A stretch of DNA of 64,000 bases from Tissierellales bacterium (GTDB taxonomy: Bacteria > Bacillota > Clostridia > Tissierellales > Tissierellaceae): assembly GCA_014360205.1 (NCBI GenBank), contig JACIXZ010000006.1:62001-126000 (forward strand), written 5' to 3'. The translations under genes and the position numbers were made by a program. Positions 27,033 through 59,525 of this stretch are shown here, piece by piece (the stretch's first letter is position 1; every line of letters begins with the position of its first letter). Below the pieces are notes generated by a model. It was not told where the DNA came from, did not search any database, and saw nothing but the letters and a program-made list of their open reading frames with translations.

Positions 27033-27040
27033 TTTAATAT

Positions 27041-27973
27041 ATAATTTTTTTAATGAGCATTTTCCCTTGAAAATAATAATAGTATTAAATCAGTCTATGT
27101 GTTTATTTTGTGATCATGTATTTTTATTTTTTCATGAGTGTAAGTCCGTCATATAAAAGAAATTGCCTTAATTCTATTCAGGATAGGATACAATTATTTC
27201 AAGATTAGATTTTGCATCTTCTATAATTGAAGGATCGTCTATTCCACACTCTTTAAAGGATTTTTCAATTATTGAATCAATATTAGCTTCATAATCTTTA
27301 TCTACTAATATATATTTCCTAATCGTTCTAAATATTTTAAATATTTCTTCATCACTATAATCATCAGTTAAAAAGTCATAATTACCAATTGAAAGACCAG
27401 AAATATTATTCACTTGTTTTTTAAATAACATCCATTTATTATCAAGTAAGACCACAATATCATCTTCATACTGTGCATACTTAGCACCCTTAATTTCAAA
27501 ATTTGCTTGCCCATTCTCAGTTGGAACTCTATCTCCCTCCACAGTTGATTCAACCTTTCCCAAGATGTCACTCTTATCAATTTCGATTGGAACTTCATAT
27601 CCCATATACACGTATATATCATCATTTACCATAATCAAACCATCGAAATTTTCATCCGGCGGTTCCGTTTGAATATTACTGCAACCTGTCATAAATATTA
27701 CTATGTAGATAAAAAATATAGCAAATAAATTAAGCTTTTTCATAATATCACTCCTACTATTTTTAATCTCAATCACTGTAAATTTCAAAACTTACCTGTG
27801 CCTAGATTTAATAAATTGGGTGTTCTTCTTTACCAAAATAACTCTTCTCTACCAATGGTTTATGATGGTATTTGTAAAGAAAATATAATTAATTGATTAA
27901 TCGCAAAATCTATTAATTTTTAATTTTAGCTATAAATAACTCTAAATAACTTTTTTAATGAGCATTTTCCCTT
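27041..27973 (-). repeat. duplicated lipoprotein cassette, locus A
   Basis: Contains the lipoprotein gene, its downstream tail, and a short transposase remnant (about 27785-27862), all also present at 35110-36000 in the opposite orientation. It is bounded by a 23-bp direct repeat: bases 27951-27973, at the 3' end of the HD-domain gene, are repeated exactly at 27046-27068. The HD gene tail is therefore duplicated on the far side of the cassette. Confidence 0.8.
27174..27743 (-). CDS. putative lipoprotein, copy A of a duplicated pair
   Basis: A 189-residue secreted lipoprotein: short basic start, hydrophobic helix, lipobox-like FMTGC (Cys about 21), then an acidic domain. Its copy at 35130-35699 differs at only three residues that I can see (D/N, V/I, A/S). 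No family is recognised. The chosen ATG has AGTAGGAG upstream; a longer frame exists but lacks conservation with copy B. It sits between the HD gene and the hydrogenase terminator in the locus A cassette. Confidence 0.75.
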   Translation of the reverse strand: MKKLNLFAIFFIYIVIFMTGCSNIQTEPPDENFDGLIMVNDDIYVYMGYEVPIEIDKSDILGKVESTVEGDRVPTENGQANFEIKGAKYAQYEDDIVVLLDNKWMLFKKQVNNISGLSIGNYDFLTDDYSDEEIFKIFRTIRKYILVDKDYEANIDSIIEKSFKECGIDDPSIIEDAKSNLEIIVSYPE

Positions 27974-34041: not shown

Positions 34042-34251
34042 AATATCACCTCTTCGTAATTTATTATATTACTTAAAACATTAAGAAAGTCATTTCTCTT
34101 TGATATTAAGAGATAGGCTTAGTTATTAACTATGTAGTTTATGTTAATTATATAACTATGAATAGAATTAATCAAATATCTTAATAATTCATACTGATTT
34201 ATAAGTACCTTTTCCAACACTTTTTCTTTGTTATTTTGTACAAATCATTGT

Positions 34252-34515
34252 TTTGAGTTATACACATTTTGACATTTTATATATAACCAAAATGTTGTAA
34301 TATAGCTATTTTCGTATTTTTCATTTGATTAGTTTTATTAATTATGTTTTTTACACCTCGAAAACAATGATATAATAACCTAAAGGTTTATTAGAAAAAA
34401 TAATTAATAAAAATTTTAATATTATTAGTAATGGTAACGATTATTAGCAATTTTTTAAAGCGACAGTATTATTCAGAGATATCTTTCAGAGGATTGTATC
34501 TCATATGTTTGACTT
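34252..34515 (+). repeat. R repeat, copy 1 (decayed)
   Basis: A diverged copy of the R element at 36191-36541 and 37731-38083. The promoter-like start (TTTTGAGTTATA) and the 3' half are recognisable: ACACCTCGAAAACAATGA, the AT-rich middle, and TTCAGAGATATCTTTCAG. The peptide ORF is destroyed; its ATG is followed by TTG TAA, with a deletion of about 6 bases. Confidence 0.75.
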
Positions 34516-34729
34516 TTCTAGATTGTTGTTGCATAGGAGATAATAACAAAGGATTATAAAGAGACTATAATATTTGTAATTTATGATAATACATTAATTA
34601 AAAATGTAGCGAATATTATTTATATAAAAAGGTAAATAATAGATGACATTAAAAATAAATTTATTTTAATCGTAATTTATTGAAATAAATCTATTTTTTC
34701 ATAGAGTTTACTAAAGAACCATAGCTAAA
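34516..34729. other. AT-rich intergenic region
   Basis: No convincing gene. A nine-codon ORF opens ATGACATTAAAAATA at about 34643, but I see no good ribosome binding site. Nothing else is evident. Confidence 0.35.
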
Positions 34730-35052: not shown

Positions 35053-35129
35053 TAAATAGTATAACATAAAAATATACAATCTAATATTTAATGAATATAG
35101 GTATAACAATGGTTATTAGGAGGGATATT

Positions 35130-35699
35130 ATGAAAAAGCTTAATTTATTTGCTATATTTTTTATCTACATAGTAATATTTATGACAGGTTGCAGTAATAT
35201 TCAAACGGAACCACCGGATGAAAATTTCGATGGTTTGATTATGGTAAATGATAATATATACGTGTATATGGGATATGAAGTTCCAATCGAAATTGATAAG
35301 AGTGACATCTTGGGAAAGGTTGAATCAACTGTGGAGGGAGATAGAATTCCAACTGAGAATGGGCAAGCAAATTTTGAAATTAAGGGTGCTAAATATGCAC
35401 AGTATGAAGATGATATCGTGGTCTTACTTGATAATAAATGGATGTTATTTAAAAAACAAGTGAATAACATTTCTGGTCTTTCAATTGGTAATTATGACTT
35501 TTTAACTGATGATTATAGTGATGAAGAAATATTTAAAATATTTAGAACGATTAGGAAATATATATTAGTAGATAAAGATTATGAATCTAATATTGATTCA
35601 ATAATTGAAAAATCCTTTAAAGAATGTGGAATAGACGATCCTTCAATTATAGAAGATGCAAAATCTAATCTTGAAATAATTGTATCCTATCCTGAATAG
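35130..35699 (+). CDS. putative lipoprotein, copy B of a duplicated pair
   Basis: Nearly identical to the 27174-27743 protein (three visible residue changes across 189). Same lipoprotein signal and stop. The ATG follows TTAGGAGGG. Downstream it carries the same tail, then a 23-base stretch matching the HD gene's 3' end at 35805-35827 (one mismatch) and the same spacer. So locus B contains pieces that at locus A belong to the polyphosphate operon. Confidence 0.78.
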   Translation: MKKLNLFAIFFIYIVIFMTGCSNIQTEPPDENFDGLIMVNDNIYVYMGYEVPIEIDKSDILGKVESTVEGDRIPTENGQANFEIKGAKYAQYEDDIVVLLDNKWMLFKKQVNNISGLSIGNYDFLTDDYSDEEIFKIFRTIRKYILVDKDYESNIDSIIEKSFKECGIDDPSIIEDAKSNLEIIVSYPE

Positions 35700-35881
35700 A
35701 ATTAAGGCAATTTCTTTTATATGATGGACTTATACTCATGAAAAAATAAAAATACATGATCACAAAATAAACACATAGACTGATTTAATAATATTATTAT
35801 TTTCAAGGGTAAATGCTCATTAAAAAAATTATATAGAGTTATTTATAGCTAAAATTAAATATTAATAGATTTTGTGATTAA

Positions 35882-36178
35882 TCAATTAATTATATTTTTC
35901 TCTACAAATACCATCATAAACCATTGGTAAAAAAGAGTTATTTGGGTATTTGGGCAAAGAAGAAGACCCAATTTATTAAATCTAGGCTCAGGTAAACCTT
36001 GAGTATTACGAGGATTAAAATTAATAATAGGCATGATATCTTTCTTGTAAAAGTAAGCATAATTATTATCAGCATCAAAAGAATTCTTCGCATCATAAAA
36101 CCTTAAATCTTCATAAAGATTGTTATCAAAATCATTAGAAATATCACAAAGATTTAATTGCTTAGCTGAAACTGGCAT
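35882..36178 (-). pseudogene. transposase-like fragment (T2)
   Basis: A 98-codon fragment with a good AAAGGAG site and ATG at 36178. It reads FYDAKNSFDADNNYAYF and IMPIINFNPRNTQGLPEP, resembling the middle of DDE transposases (Asp-Ala-xxx...INFNPRN). There is no full catalytic core. Related pieces are at 37522-37725 (with stops) and in locus A near 27785-27862. Identity with a known IS family is not established. Confidence 0.5.
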
Positions 36179-36196
36179 AAGCTTCTCCTTTCTGTT

Positions 36197-36225
36197 TTGA
36201 GTTATAAACAATTTTATATTATAAA
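36197..36225 (+). promoter_or_regulatory. promoter of the 27-residue peptide gene, copy 2
   Basis: TTGAGT at 36197-36202, a 17-base spacer, TATAAA at 36220-36225. The same arrangement is at 37737-37765 in copy 3. Confidence 0.65.
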
Positions 36226-36279
36226 CATACTAAAAATGGGGAGAATCCAGCCATTTCAATATATAGAAAGGCAGTAAAT

Positions 36280-36324
36280 ATGCGAGCTATAGAATTCTGC
36301 AACGAACTAATATTAAGAATTTAA
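36280..36324 (+). CDS. 14-codon upstream ORF
   Basis: ATG at 36280 after AAAGG, reading MRAIEFCNELILRI and stopping 13 bases before the next ATG. The same ORF is exactly conserved in the copy at 37819-37863. It could be a leader peptide or chance; its stop overlaps the AAAGGAG site of the next peptide, so coupling is possible. Confidence 0.35.
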   Translation: MRAIEFCNELILRI

Positions 36325-36337
36325 AGGAGATTTGTAT

Positions 36338-36421
36338 ATGACATTAATTGCTATAGCTACTGTTGTATTCTTCATTGGGATTGTTGTATTAATTATGTTT
36401 CTCACACATCGAAAACAATGA
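36338..36421 (+). CDS. 27-residue single-helix membrane peptide (copy 2)
   Basis: AAAGGAG lies 7 bases before the ATG. The peptide opens MTLIAIAT, has one hydrophobic helix to about residue 22, and ends THRKQ. The copy at 37878 differs by one residue (V/L at position 10). The architecture is like the 34-35-residue peptides at 14136 and 19007, though they do not align. Each copy lies upstream of accessory genes, one of them just before an ABC exporter. The family is unknown. Confidence 0.55.
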   Translation: MTLIAIATVVFFIGIVVLIMFLTHRKQ

Positions 36422-36545
36422 AATAATAATCTAAGGGTTTATTTGAGAAAATAATAAATAATAAATTTTTAATTTTATTAGTAATGTTAATGATTATTAG
36501 TAAATTTTTAAAACATAGCATTATTCAGAGATATCTTTCAGAGGG

Positions 36546-36896
36546 TTGTATCTCATATGTTTGACTTCTTTAGAGAAATCTGAACAAATATATGACTTAG
36601 AAATTAACTTTTTAAAATTAATTTCCGAGCTAAATATAATGAACAATGATGAAATTACTAAAGAATACAAAAGCATATCGGGATCTGTAGATGTATCATA
36701 TAATTTAGTAGATTTAGAGGAACAATTGAATATACAATCATATTTATTACAGGATACATTGTCAAAAAAAATTAAACTATCTAACAAATGCCTAATCCAA
36801 GATAATACCGGTGTTATGTACATAGCAATCATTTATTCTGATATTAGGTCCACACAATCTGAAATAAAAGGAGAGAAATTTAATGAGAAAACGTAA
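36546..36896 (+). CDS. unknown protein, start uncertain
   Basis: A frame of up to 116 residues, opening with a TTG at the end of the R repeat, so its natural 5' end may have been replaced. The body is helical and acidic (YDLEINFLKLISELNIMNND, DLEEQLNIQSYLLQ) and the end is basic. I recognise no family. It overlaps the next small gene by 14 bases, which supports real coupled translation. No signal peptide or membrane segment. Confidence 0.45.
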   Translation: MYLICLTSLEKSEQIYDLEINFLKLISELNIMNNDEITKEYKSISGSVDVSYNLVDLEEQLNIQSYLLQDTLSKKIKLSNKCLIQDNTGVMYIAIIYSDIRSTQSEIKGEKFNEKT

Positions 36897-37134
36897 GGTT
36901 GGTCCAGTTATTTCAGTTGGAGGATTTTTTGCATCTGCTAGAGATGCGGATTTAGCTAGAAAAATAAGAGATCAAACAGATAAGGGATATAATGTGGAGT
37001 GGAGCGCTACAAAAAATCAATATGGTACTTTTTATGCAGCTGATTATTGGAATGGAAGTACTATTGATTTAAGTGTAATTAATTCTGATATTACTACAGA
37101 AGAAATAACCTCTATAGCTTATAGAAAAAAATAG
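36883..37134 (+). CDS. 83-residue basic protein of unknown function
   Basis: Opens MRKRKVGPVISVGGFF and contains GYNVEWSATKNQYGTFYAAD. The ATG follows AAAGGAG. It has no membrane helix and no cysteine. The ISVGG segment recalls a double-glycine site, but the acidic leader expected in bacteriocin precursors is missing. It lies between an unknown ORF and a zinc-ribbon protein, upstream of an ABC exporter. A secreted-peptide role is only a guess. Confidence 0.6.
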   Translation: MRKRKVGPVISVGGFFASARDADLARKIRDQTDKGYNVEWSATKNQYGTFYAADYWNGSTIDLSVINSDITTEEITSIAYRKK

Positions 37135-37154
37135 ATAATAAGGAGATTAATTAA

Positions 37155-37355
37155 ATGATATGTCCATATTGTGGAGAAAAAATGGAAAAAGGGATAATTC
37201 ATGGAGATAGATATAAATTGAAATGGATTGCAGATGAGAAAGATAAGGGGCCATTCTTACAAATGTTTATAAAAGGTATAGAATTAGAAAAAGAAGGAAG
37301 TGGAGTAGAAGCATATTATTGTGAAACAGATGGAATAATTCTAATAAAAATATAA
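37155..37355 (+). CDS. small zinc-ribbon protein (DUF6487-like)
   Basis: A 66-residue protein with MICPYCGEKMEKGIIHGD at the start and a further Cys in EAYYCETDG. The CPYCG...MEKG.I.GDR pattern matches small DUF6487-type proteins. Only three of the four expected metal ligands are visible as Cys; a His may serve. ATG after AAGGAG. Last gene of the three-ORF group before the second direct repeat. Confidence 0.7.
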   Translation: MICPYCGEKMEKGIIHGDRYKLKWIADEKDKGPFLQMFIKGIELEKEGSGVEAYYCETDGIILIKI

Positions 37356-37521
37356 ATAGCCTCAAGAACCAAGGTTTCAATATCTTTAGAATAAAAAATT
37401 TTAGAGAGTGGTTTTATCTACTACAATTTGATTTAGAAATCAACTTAATTAAAGTTTTAATAGCTAGTGATTTGTATGAATTCCGTTCTAAAGATTAATA
37501 ACAAGAGAAATCAATGGATAA

Positions 37522-37725
37522 ATAGGCTTAGATAAACCTTGAGTATTACGAGGATTAAAATTAATAATAGGAATGATATCTTACTTGTGAAGGTAAGCAT
37601 AATTATCATCAGCATCAAAAGAATTATTCACATCCTAAAGCCTTAAATCTTCATAAAGATTGTAATCAGAAACATTAGAAATATTACATAAATTTAATTG
37701 CTTAGCAGAAACTGGCATAAGATTC
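37522..37725 (-). pseudogene. transposase-like fragment (T3), decayed
   Basis: Closely related to the T2 fragment but interrupted by in-frame stops. Together with R copy 3 it makes the second about 560-base direct repeat (37522-38083). Confidence 0.65.
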
Positions 37726-37730
37726 TTCTT

Positions 37731-38083
37731 TCTGTTTTGAGTTATAAACAACTTTATATTATAAACATACTCAAAATGGGGAGAATCCAGCCATTTCAAT
37801 ATATAAAAAGGCAGTAAATATGCGAGCTATAGAATTCTGCAACGAACTAATATTAAGAATTTAAAGGAGATTTGTATATGACATTAATTGCTATAGCTAC
37901 TGTTTTATTCTTCATTGGGATTGTTGTATTAATTATGTTTCTCACACATCGAAAACAATGAAATAATAATCTAAGGGTCTATTTGAAAAAATAATAAATA
38001 ATAAATTTTTAATTTTATTAGTAATGTTAATGATTATTAGTAAATTTTTAAAACATAGCATTATTCAGAGATATCTTTCAGAG
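37731..38083 (+). repeat. R repeat, copy 3
   Basis: Near-identical to copy 2 through the peptide gene and the AT-rich tail. After TTCAGAGG the sequences part (GTATATGGCACATATG against GTTGTATCTCATATG), which marks the repeat end. The promoter is TTGAGT at 37737-37742 and TATAAA at 37760-37765. Confidence 0.92.
37878..37961 (+). CDS. 27-residue single-helix membrane peptide (copy 3)
   Basis: Same gene as at 36338 with one residue changed. It has its own promoter, upstream 14-codon ORF and AAAGGAG site. The ABC exporter gene starts about 260 bases downstream with no clear terminator between, so they could be cotranscribed. Confidence 0.55.
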   Translation: MTLIAIATVLFFIGIVVLIMFLTHRKQ

Positions 38084-38222
38084 GTATATGGCACATATGT
38101 TTGTTTCTGGATAATTAAAACAATCATAAATAAAACATCTATTCTTTCGCTATTTAATAATGATATAATAGTTAAAAATTACATTTTAATTTGGAGAAAT
38201 ATATTCAAAGGAGTTACTATGG

Positions 38223-39938
38223 ATGAAAAAACATATTTTAAATCATAAGTTTTTATTGTTTTTGAGTATTACAGCAGTGATTATAATATCCCTTGTTGAG
38301 GCTTATCAAGCTATTTTGTTTCAGACTGTCATTGATACAGCTACAGGGACTCTCCAATTGGAATTTTCAAATTTGTTTTTATATGTGATGCTCTTCTTAT
38401 TAGCGGTGTTTATATCTGAAACATTTTCAAAAACAAGTAATGCTGCTTTAAATGCTTCAGTTATGAAGGATTATAAACAATCAATTATAAATAGTTTCTT
38501 GGGCAACAATAATCAGTCAAGATTAACCAGTTCAGAGTTAATATCTACATTAGATAATGATGTTAAAATAATAGAGAATAATTATCTTAATAGTTTGATT
38601 AGCATGACTAAGGATATATTTTTGTTTATAATATCCTTGTTTCTCTTATTTAGAATAAATGTAACACTTACTTTATCAATACTAGTTTTAGGGTGGATAC
38701 CTGTTGTTGTTCCACAGCTATTTATTAAAAAGAATCAATTATTGAAGGAAAGGTATTTAGGGAAAGTCGAAGTATTTGTAAACCAAGTCAAAGAAATTGC
38801 ACAAGGATTTGAAGTAATCAAAGGATTTAACATAGAAAATAAGATTTTAAATAAATTTTCGAATATAAATGAAGAAGCTGAACAATCAAAATTTAAGTCA
38901 GATGCTTTTACAGGTTTTCAAGGTGCAATATCTATTTCATCTGGATTTTTAATGTTTTTTATTAATTTATTAGTTGCAGCTTATTTTGTTATACAAGGAG
39001 ACATAACTCTTGGACAAATGATTGCTGCAGTACAATTAATGAATTATATCGTTAATCCACTTATTTCAATTTCCAAATATTTAACAAACATTAGATCAGT
39101 TACCAGAATTATTTCAACTATCAATGAAAAAGTATTAGATAATAAGGGTGAATCAAGCCGCGAAACAAAAGAATTTACTTTTGATAGAAATCTTAGAATA
39201 AATGAGTTGAGCTATTCCTATAATAATCGGGATAAGGTAATTTCAAATATAAATTATATTTTTGAAAAAGGTAAAAAGTACGCTATTGTAGGAGAAAGTG
39301 GCTGTGGGAAAAGTACTTTATTAAAAATATTGATGAAGCAGATAAATGATTATCAAGGGCAAATTAGTATAGATGATATCAATATAAAATCATTTGATGC
39401 AAAATCATATTATAGTAAAGTGGCATTAATACATCAAAACGTATTTGTGTTTAAAGACACTTTTAAAAACAATATATGTTTATACAATGAGTTTTCTGAT
39501 GAAAAAATTAAAAATACAATCATACAGTCTGGACTTACTAAAACTATGAACATACATAATGCAGGCTTAGACACATTAGTTGGTGAAGGACACGTTGAAT
39601 TATCAGGTGGGGAATTAAATAGACTTTCTATTGCAAGAGCCTTGATAAAAGATGTGGAAATATTATTAGTAGATGAGGCCACATCAGCCTTAGATAAAGT
39701 CATGGCATATGATATTGAAAAAACAATATTGGGATTAGATTCAACTATCATAGCCATAACACATCGAATAGATGATAACATTTTGAAGAATTATGATGAA
39801 ATTATAGTTATGAAAGATGGGGAAATAGTAGAATCTGGGAAATTACAAAAATTAATTACTAATAAAGGTTATTTTTATGATATGTATTCTAATGCGCTGC
39901 TTTCGCTGGGGGAAAAAGAACTTGTTGGAGGAGTTTAA
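38223..39938 (+). CDS. ABC exporter (fused membrane and ATPase domains)
   Basis: A 571-residue exporter. Six helices span about 10-290, and the ATPase domain about 325-565, with Walker A GESGCGKST (357-365), Q-loop IHQN, signature LSGGELNRLSIARAL (460-474), Walker B LLVDEATSALD and switch His514. It resembles peptide/bacteriocin exporters but has no C39 leader peptidase. A GGAG site serves this ATG or one 4 bases earlier (nine codons only). The next two genes are a separate ABC-2 type pair, an arrangement like export plus self-protection modules. Confidence 0.87.
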   Translation: MKKHILNHKFLLFLSITAVIIISLVEAYQAILFQTVIDTATGTLQLEFSNLFLYVMLFLLAVFISETFSKTSNAALNASVMKDYKQSIINSFLGNNNQSRLTSSELISTLDNDVKIIENNYLNSLISMTKDIFLFIISLFLLFRINVTLTLSILVLGWIPVVVPQLFIKKNQLLKERYLGKVEVFVNQVKEIAQGFEVIKGFNIENKILNKFSNINEEAEQSKFKSDAFTGFQGAISISSGFLMFFINLLVAAYFVIQGDITLGQMIAAVQLMNYIVNPLISISKYLTNIRSVTRIISTINEKVLDNKGESSRETKEFTFDRNLRINELSYSYNNRDKVISNINYIFEKGKKYAIVGESGCGKSTLLKILMKQINDYQGQISIDDINIKSFDAKSYYSKVALIHQNVFVFKDTFKNNICLYNEFSDEKIKNTIIQSGLTKTMNIHNAGLDTLVGEGHVELSGGELNRLSIARALIKDVEILLVDEATSALDKVMAYDIEKTILGLDSTIIAITHRIDDNILKNYDEIIVMKDGEIVESGKLQKLITNKGYFYDMYSNALLSLGEKELVGGV

Positions 39939-39940
39939 GT

Positions 39941-40906
39941 ATGAGTTTAAGTATTATGGAAATTCAAAATTTACATAAAACATTTGGGAATAAAAGAAAT
40001 AAAACTACTGTTTTAAATAATGTTTCATTCAATGTAGAACAAGGAACTATACATGGATTATTGGGCAATAATGGGGCAGGAAAAACGACATTAATAAAAT
40101 GTATAGTAGGTTTATTGGAACCAGATTCTGGTGATATTTATTATGAAAATGTTGACATATTAAAAGACAAAGATATCAGAACAGATAATATTTCGGTACT
40201 TTTAGATGGTGGACGTAATTTGTATTTATACATGACAGTAAAGGAGAATATAAAATATTTTACAATGCTTCATGGTATAACTAATTACCAAAATACAGAT
40301 AGATTTAAAATGATAGTAGAATATCTAGATATTTACAATATATTAAATACAAAAGTTAGTAATCTATCATTTGGAATGAGACAAAGGGCTTCTCTTGCTG
40401 TAGCACTAGCTTGTGATTTTAAACTAATAATTTTAGATGAGCCAACAACAGGATTAGATATACATTATCAAGAAGAATTAACTAAACTCTTATTTAAACT
40501 CAGAAAAGATTTTAATATTACTATTATAGTAAGTTCTCATGACATGAATTTTATTAGTCACATATGCGATTATTGCACATTATTAGATAGTGGCAATGTA
40601 GTAAAGAGCGGATCAGTTAGTGAGTTTGTAAATATATTTGGCAATAGTCATTATATTTTATTTTACGATGGAGAACTGAATTCAGAAAATATTTTAGCAA
40701 TAAAGAGGGATTTAAAACATGTAAATATAAATGAAACTAATAAGGTGATAGAAGTTTTATGGCCTAATGAAGAAAGTTTAACCTATATGATGAATTATCT
40801 CCATAACCAAAATATTTTTATTAAAGAAATAAAAAAAGAAAATAATTTGAAGAGTTCGATTATAAATTTATTAAATAATAATGAAAATATGGGTGGTGTA
40901 AAATAA
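39941..40906 (+). CDS. ABC transporter ATPase (ABC-2 type)
   Basis: A 321-residue ATPase. Walker A is GNNGAGKTT (about 41-49), signature LSFGMRQRASLA, Walker B LIILDEPTTGLD, switch His in VSSHD. The C-terminal 90 residues are typical of CcmA/BcrA-like drug or lantibiotic immunity ATPases. The ATG follows TTGGAGGAG and is 2 bases after the exporter stop; the permease ATG overlaps its stop. Confidence 0.88.
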   Translation: MSLSIMEIQNLHKTFGNKRNKTTVLNNVSFNVEQGTIHGLLGNNGAGKTTLIKCIVGLLEPDSGDIYYENVDILKDKDIRTDNISVLLDGGRNLYLYMTVKENIKYFTMLHGITNYQNTDRFKMIVEYLDIYNILNTKVSNLSFGMRQRASLAVALACDFKLIILDEPTTGLDIHYQEELTKLLFKLRKDFNITIIVSSHDMNFISHICDYCTLLDSGNVVKSGSVSEFVNIFGNSHYILFYDGELNSENILAIKRDLKHVNINETNKVIEVLWPNEESLTYMMNYLHNQNIFIKEIKKENNLKSSIINLLNNNENMGGVK

Positions 40907-41691
40907 TGGTTTATTTGTATACAGCTTTTGCATCAGCATATAAAGAACTTATTTATAAAAAACGCTATTTTTTTAACACATTGTTTTCAATGATAATGTT
41001 TTATATAATTTTTTTCTTGATTTTTAGTGGGTATTCACTAATAGCAAATAGAAGTCAATTGTCACCACTTAACTTAGGAACATCTTTATCAGGAATTGTT
41101 GTTTCATATTATGCTTGGACCATGATTTTATCAATATATACATCTACAGCATATATAGTTCAACAAAATCAACAGTTTGGAACATTAGAAAACATAATGG
41201 TACATTCAAAGAATCTTTCTTTTTTATTGGTATCAGAAAACCTTGTAAATATGTTGTTTTATTTTGTTTTCTCATGGATAAATATATTTGTGTTTTCAAA
41301 AATCTCTAATATAAGTCTCTATATAAATTTTTTTACAGTCATGTACATAATAGTAATAGGCTTAATTTCAGTATTAGGAATAAGCCTTGTAATGGCAGGA
41401 ATATCTTTAATATACAAACAAATCAATAACTTCATGAATATAATGCAATTTTTATTGCTAGGGATACTATTTTTAAAAGATACTATAATATCTAGGCTGT
41501 TTCTGCCTTTTTATCAAGCAAATAAATTACTTCAAGATTCTTTTATAAAAAATCTGACATTTAAAAATTTTACAATTCATGATCATTTATTGTTGAATTT
41601 GAATGCTATAATTTTTTTAACAATAGGTTTAATTGTTTTTAAAAAGTGTTTAAATAAGGCAAAAATTAAAGGAACATTAAATTTCTATTAG
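40906..41691 (+). CDS. ABC-2 type transporter permease
   Basis: A 261-residue membrane protein with about six helices, opening YTAFASAYKELIYKKRYFF as in ABC-2 permeases of daunorubicin or bacteriocin-immunity type. It overlaps the ATPase stop by one base. It probably forms a separate transporter with the preceding ATPase, in an operon with the exporter. Substrate unknown. Confidence 0.83.
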   Translation: MVYLYTAFASAYKELIYKKRYFFNTLFSMIMFYIIFFLIFSGYSLIANRSQLSPLNLGTSLSGIVVSYYAWTMILSIYTSTAYIVQQNQQFGTLENIMVHSKNLSFLLVSENLVNMLFYFVFSWINIFVFSKISNISLYINFFTVMYIIVIGLISVLGISLVMAGISLIYKQINNFMNIMQFLLLGILFLKDTIISRLFLPFYQANKLLQDSFIKNLTFKNFTIHDHLLLNLNAIIFLTIGLIVFKKCLNKAKIKGTLNFY

Positions 41692-41797
41692 GTATTTAAT
41701 GAGATTAGCTATATTTTGAGCAGTTGAGGACATAAAATAAATGATACTGTTTGTTGTCTCCATGACTTTATGTTAAAAACTTCTCTAAATTTAGTAG

Positions 41798-41826
41798 TTG
41801 TATCATATAATAATATGTACTATAAT
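41798..41826 (+). promoter_or_regulatory. promoter of the trpP T-box leader
   Basis: TTGTAT at 41798-41803, 17-base spacer, TATAAT at 41821-41826. Confidence 0.7.
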
Positions 41827-41839
41827 ACTATTTAATAAT

Positions 41840-42112
41840 CCAATGATTAGAAATAGTAACTAAAGAATAAGTTATAGAGAGTTGAGGATGGTGGAAACTC
41901 AACACTGATTTCTTTTGTGAATGGATCTAATAGGAGCAAGCCGAAATCAAAGTATTCTTTGAGAGTAGTTCTTGACGGGAGCTGCCCGTTATAGCGGATA
42001 GGATATGAATGTATCTGAAAATGAGATATACTTATGTATTTGTAATAAGTATAAATTAGGTGGCAACGCGAATCTAACTTCGCCCTATTGTTTTAGGGCG
42101 GAGTTTTTTTAT
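41840..42112 (+). promoter_or_regulatory. T-box leader, tryptophan-specific
   Basis: Stem I distal elements (AGAGAGTTGAGGATGGTGGAA, split over 41876-41896), specifier GAATGGATC with TGG at 41922-41924, stem II/III hairpins (ACGGGAGCTGCCCGT), antiterminator core AGGTGGCAACGCG (42058-42070), and terminator arms at 42078-42088 and 42094-42104 followed by T7. The TGG specifier and the TrpP-like gene downstream agree on tryptophan, and the TGGC bulge fits a G discriminator. Confidence 0.92.
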
Positions 42113-42189
42113 TTAGGTGGTGATTTAAATGTTGTGAAAGCATGTGATAAATCAAAACAGAATAATATAAAATTAAGGAGAGGATTTTT

Positions 42190-42702
42190 GTGAATTTAAA
42201 AAAGATGATTTTGACATCCATATTTCTAGCTATTGGGCTCATACTCCACCAAGCTATGCCATCGATATTGTTTGGAATGAAACCTGATCTTATGCTTTGC
42301 ATGATGTTTATAGTTTTATATTTAAATAGGAAAGACTATAAAATGGCACTTTTGATAGGGATTATCGCAGGGCTGTTTTCAGCATTTACTACTACTTTTC
42401 CATTTGGGCAGATTCCAAATATCGTAGATAAGATAATTACAGCAAATATAATATTTTTGCTTTTTAAGGTAATGGATTCAAAAGTGAAAGAGCAAATTCA
42501 AATAATTATAGCATCAATCATTGGAACCTTTGTGAGTGGAATCGTATTTTTAAGCACTGCACTTTTTTTAGCAGGATTACCTGGGCCATTTAGTGCATTA
42601 GTCATCGGGGTGGTTTTACCGGCGGTATTGTTAAACACATTGATGTGCGTATTTTTATACAATATAGTTAAAGTGTCCCTAAAAAGATCAAGTATAGCAT
42701 GA
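42190..42702 (+). CDS. trpP: tryptophan transporter TrpP
   Basis: A 170-residue membrane protein of the TrpP/ECF-S-like type, with about five or six helices (SIFLAIGLILHQAMPSILFG, PFGQIPNIVDKI). The tryptophan T-box leader upstream supports the substrate call. Expression should rise when uncharged tRNA-Trp builds up. The GTG start at 42190 lies behind GGAGAGG. A terminator follows. Confidence 0.9.
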   Translation: MNLKKMILTSIFLAIGLILHQAMPSILFGMKPDLMLCMMFIVLYLNRKDYKMALLIGIIAGLFSAFTTTFPFGQIPNIVDKIITANIIFLLFKVMDSKVKEQIQIIIASIIGTFVSGIVFLSTALFLAGLPGPFSALVIGVVLPAVLLNTLMCVFLYNIVKVSLKRSSIA

Positions 42703-59264: not shown

Positions 59265-59525
59265 TTATAATTTTTTTAAATAAAATTTTCCCTTCTCTGA
59301 TAGACTAAAAGTCATAAAACTATTAGTTGGACAATTGGATAAATTGCAACCAAAACATTTGCCACCACATGAAAATTCACTTCCATCTTTTTTTAGATAA
59401 TCCATTTGTTTAAGCTGCTCTATGAATTGATTAGCTTCCATTTCGCTAATATTTAATTTATTAGCAATATCTTTAGTTGATTTAACAGACCCTTCTGAAA
59501 TTAATTTTAAACATTCTTTTAACAT
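59265..59525 (-). CDS. FeoC-like winged-helix protein
   Basis: An 86-residue protein with a winged-helix fold (EGSVKSTKDIANKLNISEME) and a Cys cluster CGGKCFGCNLSNC (about 52-64) typical of FeoC-like Fe-S sensors. It is the last gene of the feo operon, 12 bases after feoB. The ATG at 59525 follows GGAGG; a TTG at 59537 lies inside that site. Confidence 0.82.
   Translation of the reverse strand: MLKECLKLISEGSVKSTKDIANKLNISEMEANQFIEQLKQMDYLKKDGSEFSCGGKCFGCNLSNCPTNSFMTFSLSEKGKFYLKKL

Follow-up and report, generated by a model that had tools for sequence, protein, structure and literature searches.

A composite stretch of a probable Soehngenia genome: insertion-sequence remnants and gene fragments beside an intact ABC transporter operon

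In this study, we analyzed positions 36,280 to 41,691 of a 64,000-nucleotide stretch from a Tissierellales bacterium (assembly GCA_014360205.1, contig JACIXZ010000006.1, positions 62,001 to 126,000), hereafter the window (G000:C56:62001-126000, G000 being its own genome). This region had been proposed, in an initial annotation, as a single peptide system made of short peptides, three unfamiliar open reading frames (ORFs), an ATP-binding cassette (ABC) exporter and an ABC-2 pair. It is a composite, and largely ordinary. The left half (36.3-38.1 kb) consists of remnants of IS1182-like insertion sequences (IS), pieces of two unrelated gene units and two repeats with a 27-aa ORF. The right half is an intact operon of the exporter, which has no C39 domain, and an ABC-2 ATPase and permease, retained by selection. 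It is moderately probable that, beside a left half of debris with IS remnants, this operon pumps out a peptide-like cargo. All of the ORFs named in the initial annotation are present, and no modification enzyme was recognized in the stretch, as it had said; the single system gives way to an operon lying beside remnants of other genes. An apparent "unknown peptide operon" can thus arise when gene tails meet among IS remnants.

An intact transporter operon under purifying selection

Three Soehngenia genomes were compared (G000, G001 and G002). We infer that G002 is Soehngenia longivitae (NZ_SRIB01000005, locus L001), so that the window genome would also belong to Soehngenia, with S. longivitae as its sister. 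The same locus is present in both, and the DNA alignment shows 98% identity across 36894-42000. The three transporter genes are tightly packed: 2 bp lie between the exporter stop and the ATPase gene, and the permease start overlaps the ATPase stop by one base. The operon is >99% identical in S. longivitae (exporter, 99.3%), and 23 codons differ across the three genes. Because 17 of these differences are synonymous (P=1.2e-6, with 75% replacement expected), the operon has been retained by purifying selection.

The exporter belongs to the ABC exporters by both of its domains (PF00664, 93.9 bits against a cut-off of 28; PF00005, 97.5 against 25). It falls short of the model for peptidase-containing bacteriocin exporters (TIGR01193, 208.5 against 523.85 bits), and C39 is not among the 24 Pfam families listed for it at E <= 1, which bears out the missing peptidase of the initial annotation. 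It also stays below the MsbA lipid A exporter model (TIGR02203, 236.4 against 602), and the ABC-2 ATPase below that for lantibiotic protection ATPases (TIGR03740, 142.8 against 309.75). The permease matched no Pfam or NCBIfam family and nothing in the PDB.

Origin of the small ORFs

By alignment, the 36546 and 36883 ORFs are pieces of two different genes, and apparently debris, because a fusion junction between 36890 and 36894 in the DNA alignment separates the tail of a lipoprotein gene from a secreted-protein gene. Most of the 36546 ORF evidently corresponds to the C-terminal ~105 residues of a 528-aa lipoprotein: 36575-36890 shares 65% protein identity with its C-terminus over 105 residues, and the window DNA follows the end of that gene into the first codons of the next one, arranged as in G001:C122. 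The start codon of this ORF lies within a repeat that is also found at 34453 and 38045. The intact form of the source of the fragment (locus L143, on G001:C122) stands in a row with a helix-turn-helix (HTH) regulator and an ImmA/IrrE-like protein (by eye), a 230-aa secreted protein, the 528-aa lipoprotein and a 203-aa membrane protein; the last three all stay below the Pfam cut-offs.

The 83-aa ORF is a chimera: its first 3-4 codons come from one gene, and the rest encodes residues ~154-232 of a secreted protein of 239 aa, whose gene is unbroken in S. longivitae. The truncation takes away the signal peptide and part of a hydrophobic segment, which lowers the hydropathy peak to 0.84, against 1.75 before. 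In the intact protein, the N-terminus resembles a signal peptide and the hydrophobic segment spans residues 142-169 (signal peptides were judged by eye and by hydropathy); with an apparent Sec signal peptide, this protein should not need the exporter. This family is rare. With the own and sister genomes counted in each set, it was found in 3 of 100 relatives, in 2 of 391 genomes from the class and in 3 of 398 from the phylum. An order-wide profile search matched 8 of 248 genomes at E <= 0.01 (own and sister included), and three genomes were accepted; weak matches from five genomes, with E values of 2e-4 to 0.006 and located within open frames 422 to 776 aa long, were dropped as chance. The copy of the gene in G798 is likewise broken. 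The protein reaches no Pfam or NCBIfam cut-off and has no relative among the plasmids, phages and viral contigs searched, and the best PDB profile match of its family has E 0.54. A single-sequence AlphaFold model (mean predicted local distance difference test score, pLDDT, 37.5) was not used. A distant 260-aa paralogue (L037, G002:C9:2956-3735) is followed by a 65-aa hydrophobic ORF, which might be its immunity partner.

The third small ORF, at 37155, is intact and is a member of DUF6487 (PF20097, 51.8 bits against a cut-off of 24), with zero nucleotide differences from S. longivitae. Thus, the three ORFs called unfamiliar in the initial annotation do exist, two of them as fragments and the third as a known Pfam family. 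The DUF6487 gene follows the secreted-protein gene in 4/4 close-family loci (window, G002, G014 and G798). Of 40 relatives, 10 have DUF6487 above the cut-off, and its neighbours vary among the eight loci viewed; because DUF6487 alone is commoner and keeps such varied company, the pairing is one-way. A literature search in a limited collection found nothing on DUF6487.

The 27-aa ORF begins just past the end of an IS1182-like remnant. Stretches 35895-36080 and 36123-36343 match a longer element on G000:C34, whose 489-aa transposase, the closest full-length one, scores 82.9 bits on the IS1182 model (E=2.2e-23; cut-off 270) and would be, at best, a divergent IS1182 relative. The arrangement resembles IS1182-family insertion sequences in that transposase remnants flank the small ORFs of the window, and differs in that the copies here are internally deleted and even the transposase of the full-length relative falls under the cut-off. 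The unit of remnant and peptide is present twice in the window and once in S. longivitae, besides two older, broken copies; in the copy at 34249-34522, the peptide frame is without a start and has one TGA inside the match. When remnant, peptide and tail are taken together (741 bp), G000 and G001 each contain 14 matches and G002 contains 19; seven of the 14 in G000 are located at contig ends. In the region of the 65% identical exporter relative described below (L149, G081:C44; 1681-2458 and 5501-8631, both on the minus strand), another 27-aa hydrophobic ORF with a basic tail, of unlike sequence and with no recognized ribosome site, lies directly before a broken secreted-protein gene, and the exporter there is bordered by a VanZ-like gene and by part of a second copy.

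Table 1. Positions of the features in the window
Feature	Position	Strand	Basis or remark
Oldest copy of the IS-end/27-aa-peptide repeat, pseudo-copy	34249-34522	+	Direct repeats, alignment, translation
IS1182-like remnant, internally deleted; transposase fragment ORF at 35882-36211	35882-36330	-	Match to longer element; ends approximate
27-aa ORF, copy A: single helix, hydrophobic, basic tail, ribosome-binding site	36338-36421	+	
Common tail of the peptide repeat	36422-36574	+	Repeat comparison
116-aa ORF	36546-36896	+	TTG start
Remnant: 3' end of the 528-aa lipoprotein gene and first codons of the next gene, as in G001	36575-36890	+	Protein and DNA alignment
83-aa ORF	36883-37134	+	Chimera
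Remnant: C-terminal ~79 residues of the 239-aa secreted protein	36894-37134	+	Alignment to S. longivitae
DUF6487 (PF20097) small protein, 66 aa	37155-37355	+	Intact; Pfam E=1.1e-13
Second copy of IS remnant and peptide repeat	37523-38103	+	Direct repeats; 94% identical over 581 bp
27-aa ORF, copy B	37878-37961	+	
ABC exporter, membrane domain and ATPase in one chain, 571 aa	38223-39938	+	ABC_membrane E=1.8e-26, ABC_tran E=1.3e-27
ABC-2 type ATPase, 321 aa	39941-40906	+	ABC_tran E=7.6e-32
ABC-2 type permease, 261 aa	40906-41691	+	Neighbours of relatives

Relatives of the transporters

Relatives of the exporter were searched with up to 5 or up to 9 first-look candidates scored per genome, and the loci compared are the best-scoring ones; several are cut by contig ends (within the exporter itself at L159 and L162), and L156 and L157 were read in part. 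Among 249 genomes of the order, exporters at least 65% identical were found in the own genome (the window and a lone paralogue on C67), G002 and G081 only, the closest being those of C67 (68%) and G081 (65%). A distant relative in G041 shows the same three-gene order at 37/31/25% identity, with a LytTR regulator gene upstream. Across 22 loci (S. longivitae, 20 others and L199), a relative of the ABC-2 permease near the exporter was observed only in S. longivitae and G041. The combination of exporter and ABC-2 pair pointed out in the initial annotation is therefore upheld as an intact selected operon with an order shared by G041, and the small ORFs find no support as parts of the system.

Radical S-adenosylmethionine (radical-SAM) genes were confirmed by Pfam solely where suspected by eye, so their counts are lower bounds. 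Excluding the window and S. longivitae, at least 6 of 21 loci have such genes close to the exporter (L156, L160, L161, L163, L165 and L199), and one further locus (L166) has a condensation-domain gene. A tree of 22 exporters places G472 and G974 with the window clade (support 100/99); the G974 exporter abuts a radical-SAM gene, and the G472 exporter comes after an HTH regulator gene. Two of these loci were described on their own account. L199 (G974:C12, 1684-7741) contains tandem small secreted proteins sharing a signal peptide, a membrane protein (by eye), the radical-SAM gene and the exporter; it is a possible modified-peptide or bacteriocin cluster. L160 (G861:C1, 475-8194) looks like a modified-peptide cluster: a related exporter is preceded by two repeated 84-aa ORFs, with a radical-SAM/SPASM gene behind the second and part of such a gene behind the first.

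Relatives of the permease were detected in 29 of 150 genomes, adjoining an ATPase relative in 17 of 18 neighbourhoods (the remaining one is at a contig end). In nine of the 18 fetched neighbourhoods that were viewed, no recognized bacteriocin-like gene was linked. At one of them (L072), exporter-type genes lie ~2 kb away.

In the stretches read, neither the secreted protein nor a matching DUF6487 turned up at any of the 21 exporter loci. For G014 and G798, which carry both of these genes, the 15-16 kb read contain no such exporter; an ABC-2-type pair lies ~3 kb off in G798, its ATPase 31% identical and its permease without a match to that of the window. Since the pair can be found apart from this exporter, and the closest exporters apart from the pair, the two modules appear at most loosely linked. 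Small ORFs and transporters were seen together only in the two Soehngenia genomes, and the third member of the genus, G001, has no match to the 83-aa ORF, DUF6487 or the permease. This outcome largely matches the lack of co-occurrence that the initial annotation had named as refuting a single peptide system.

Proposed function and alternative explanations

Our best guess is that the operon serves peptide export with self-protection. The exporter would move a small peptide or peptide-like compound outward, the ABC-2 pair would protect the cell by expelling this compound from the membrane, and the cargo gene may be located elsewhere or have been lost. This reading is based on the company that related exporters keep with radical-SAM genes and not on a cargo. 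The window exporter resembles radical-SAM-linked single-chain exporters, including the one in G974, in chain length and layout, and differs from them in lacking a recognized maturase or precursor. LanFEG-type transporters are ABC-2 protection pairs of lantibiotics and bacteriocins. Like these, the window has a separate ATPase and a small permease beside an exporter; unlike them, its ATPase is under the TIGR03740 cut-off, the permease is single and no lanthionine genes were recognized.

Several observations weigh against peptide export from an operon set beside debris. No cargo was found in the window: among its listed non-overlapping ORFs of >=90 aa, a single one, at 59265, has a CxxxCxxC motif, so a radical-SAM peptide cluster (ribosomally synthesized and post-translationally modified peptide, RiPP) was not found, and no precursor was recognized by eye among its small ORFs with a ribosome site. 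The closest exporters, on C67 and in G081, have neither an ABC-2 permease relative nor a recognized radical-SAM gene in the 15 kb read. The best 25 of 190 NCBIfam matches of the exporter, and of 198 of the ATPase, are all under their cut-offs and give no curated name. Moreover, the tree rows of G472 and G974 are long and their placement was flagged as unsure. As for the debris, the 83-aa ORF has a ribosome site and could still be made, and over its 237 bases the secreted-protein remnant shows a single difference from L001; the truncation is therefore recent, with no further decay visible. Our confidence is slightly reduced because of the unsure G974 branch and the undecayed remnant.

The main alternative is that the operon encodes ordinary efflux pumps for drugs or lipids, unconnected with any peptide, which we regard as possible, at about one chance in three. 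Among curated models, the operon comes closest to MsbA-like and other general exporters and to DrrA, all under cut-off; in the PDB, it comes closest to the yeast a-factor exporter and to pumps of the P-glycoprotein type. The wide distribution of related ABC-2 pairs is consistent with efflux too, as most neighbours in the nine neighbourhoods were, by eye, housekeeping or unrelated genes, a further point against peptide export. What speaks for peptide export over efflux is that radical-SAM genes, typical of modified-peptide clusters, accompany at least 6 of 21 related exporters, and that the radical-SAM-linked G974 exporter, on its long branch, groups with the window clade.

It is unlikely that the locus functions in S. 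longivitae as an antibacterial-protein system from which the window strain lost the toxin by rearrangement while keeping the protection. This would account for a secreted-protein gene truncated in the window while the transporters are under selection, for the signal-peptide-like start and hydrophobic segment of the intact protein, and for the presence of the locus in both genomes. Against it, the secreted protein and DUF6487 occur without this exporter in G014 and G798, the exporter occurs without the secreted protein on C67 and in G081, and the IS/peptide repeat separates the two modules. In its fuller form, an antibacterial system of a new kind, with a ~240-aa secreted protein, DUF6487 and exporter/ABC-2 self-protection, and with the window strain as an immune non-producer whose toxin gene was broken among IS remnants, the idea is quite improbable; if true, producer and cheater would form a clean natural pair at one locus. 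Nevertheless, the intact locus of S. longivitae is a lead worth a test, and its rare secreted-protein/DUF6487 pair could be tested for antibacterial action. Closticin 574, a C-terminal bacteriocin cut from a larger precursor, would be an analogy at most.

In architecture alone, the intact S. longivitae protein is similar to class III bacteriocins of the geobacillin 26 family (NF035925; alicyclobacillin 24; PMC13176240), with which it shares ~240 aa, a Sec-type signal and one hydrophobic segment in the C-terminal half. Membership of this family was rejected: NF035925 was absent from the matches at E <= 10 of the three relatives of the 83-aa ORF that were scanned, alicyclobacillin 24 as a positive control reached E=8.5e-36 and 123.6 bits over a cut-off of 40, and the family gave no meaningful alignment with the 239-aa protein. 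The literature drawn on comprised PMC13176240 and PMC11322243. In the limited collection searched, the papers that mention both Soehngenia and bacteriocins were, judged by title, on other subjects, and nothing was found on the geobacillin 26 family or on bacteriocin, ABC-2, immunity and exporter in Clostridia combined.

Most doubtful is that the 27-aa peptides are a real product, such as a membrane-active peptide, a signal peptide or a type I toxin, which the transporters would export or buffer: despite a ribosome site, a strong helix, two intact copies in the window and one in S. longivitae, and copy B being the nearest ribosome-site ORF upstream of the exporter save a 9-aa one, the ORF travels with IS1182-like remnants, its older copies are broken, none was seen upstream of the C67 and G081 exporters, the RNA fold of 36300-36574 is not beyond chance (z = 0.40) with no Rfam match at the peptide, and among 60 genomes it is matched at E <= 0.01 in two (own and sister), the best match elsewhere having E=0.288 and the matched frames spanning 48 to 853 aa.

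Other observations in the window

A 722-bp inverted repeat, 98% identical, lies at 27038-27759 (-) and 35114-35835 (+). It carries two lipoprotein genes, at 27174-27788 and at 35091-35699, whose products agree in 189 of 193 residues, and flanks a segment with ppk- and ppx-like genes (by eye), which could invert. Downstream of the ABC operon and apart from it, a T-box leader (Rfam, 115 bits) within 41834-42702 precedes a small membrane protein, by eye similar to a ThiW/TrpP-type transporter.

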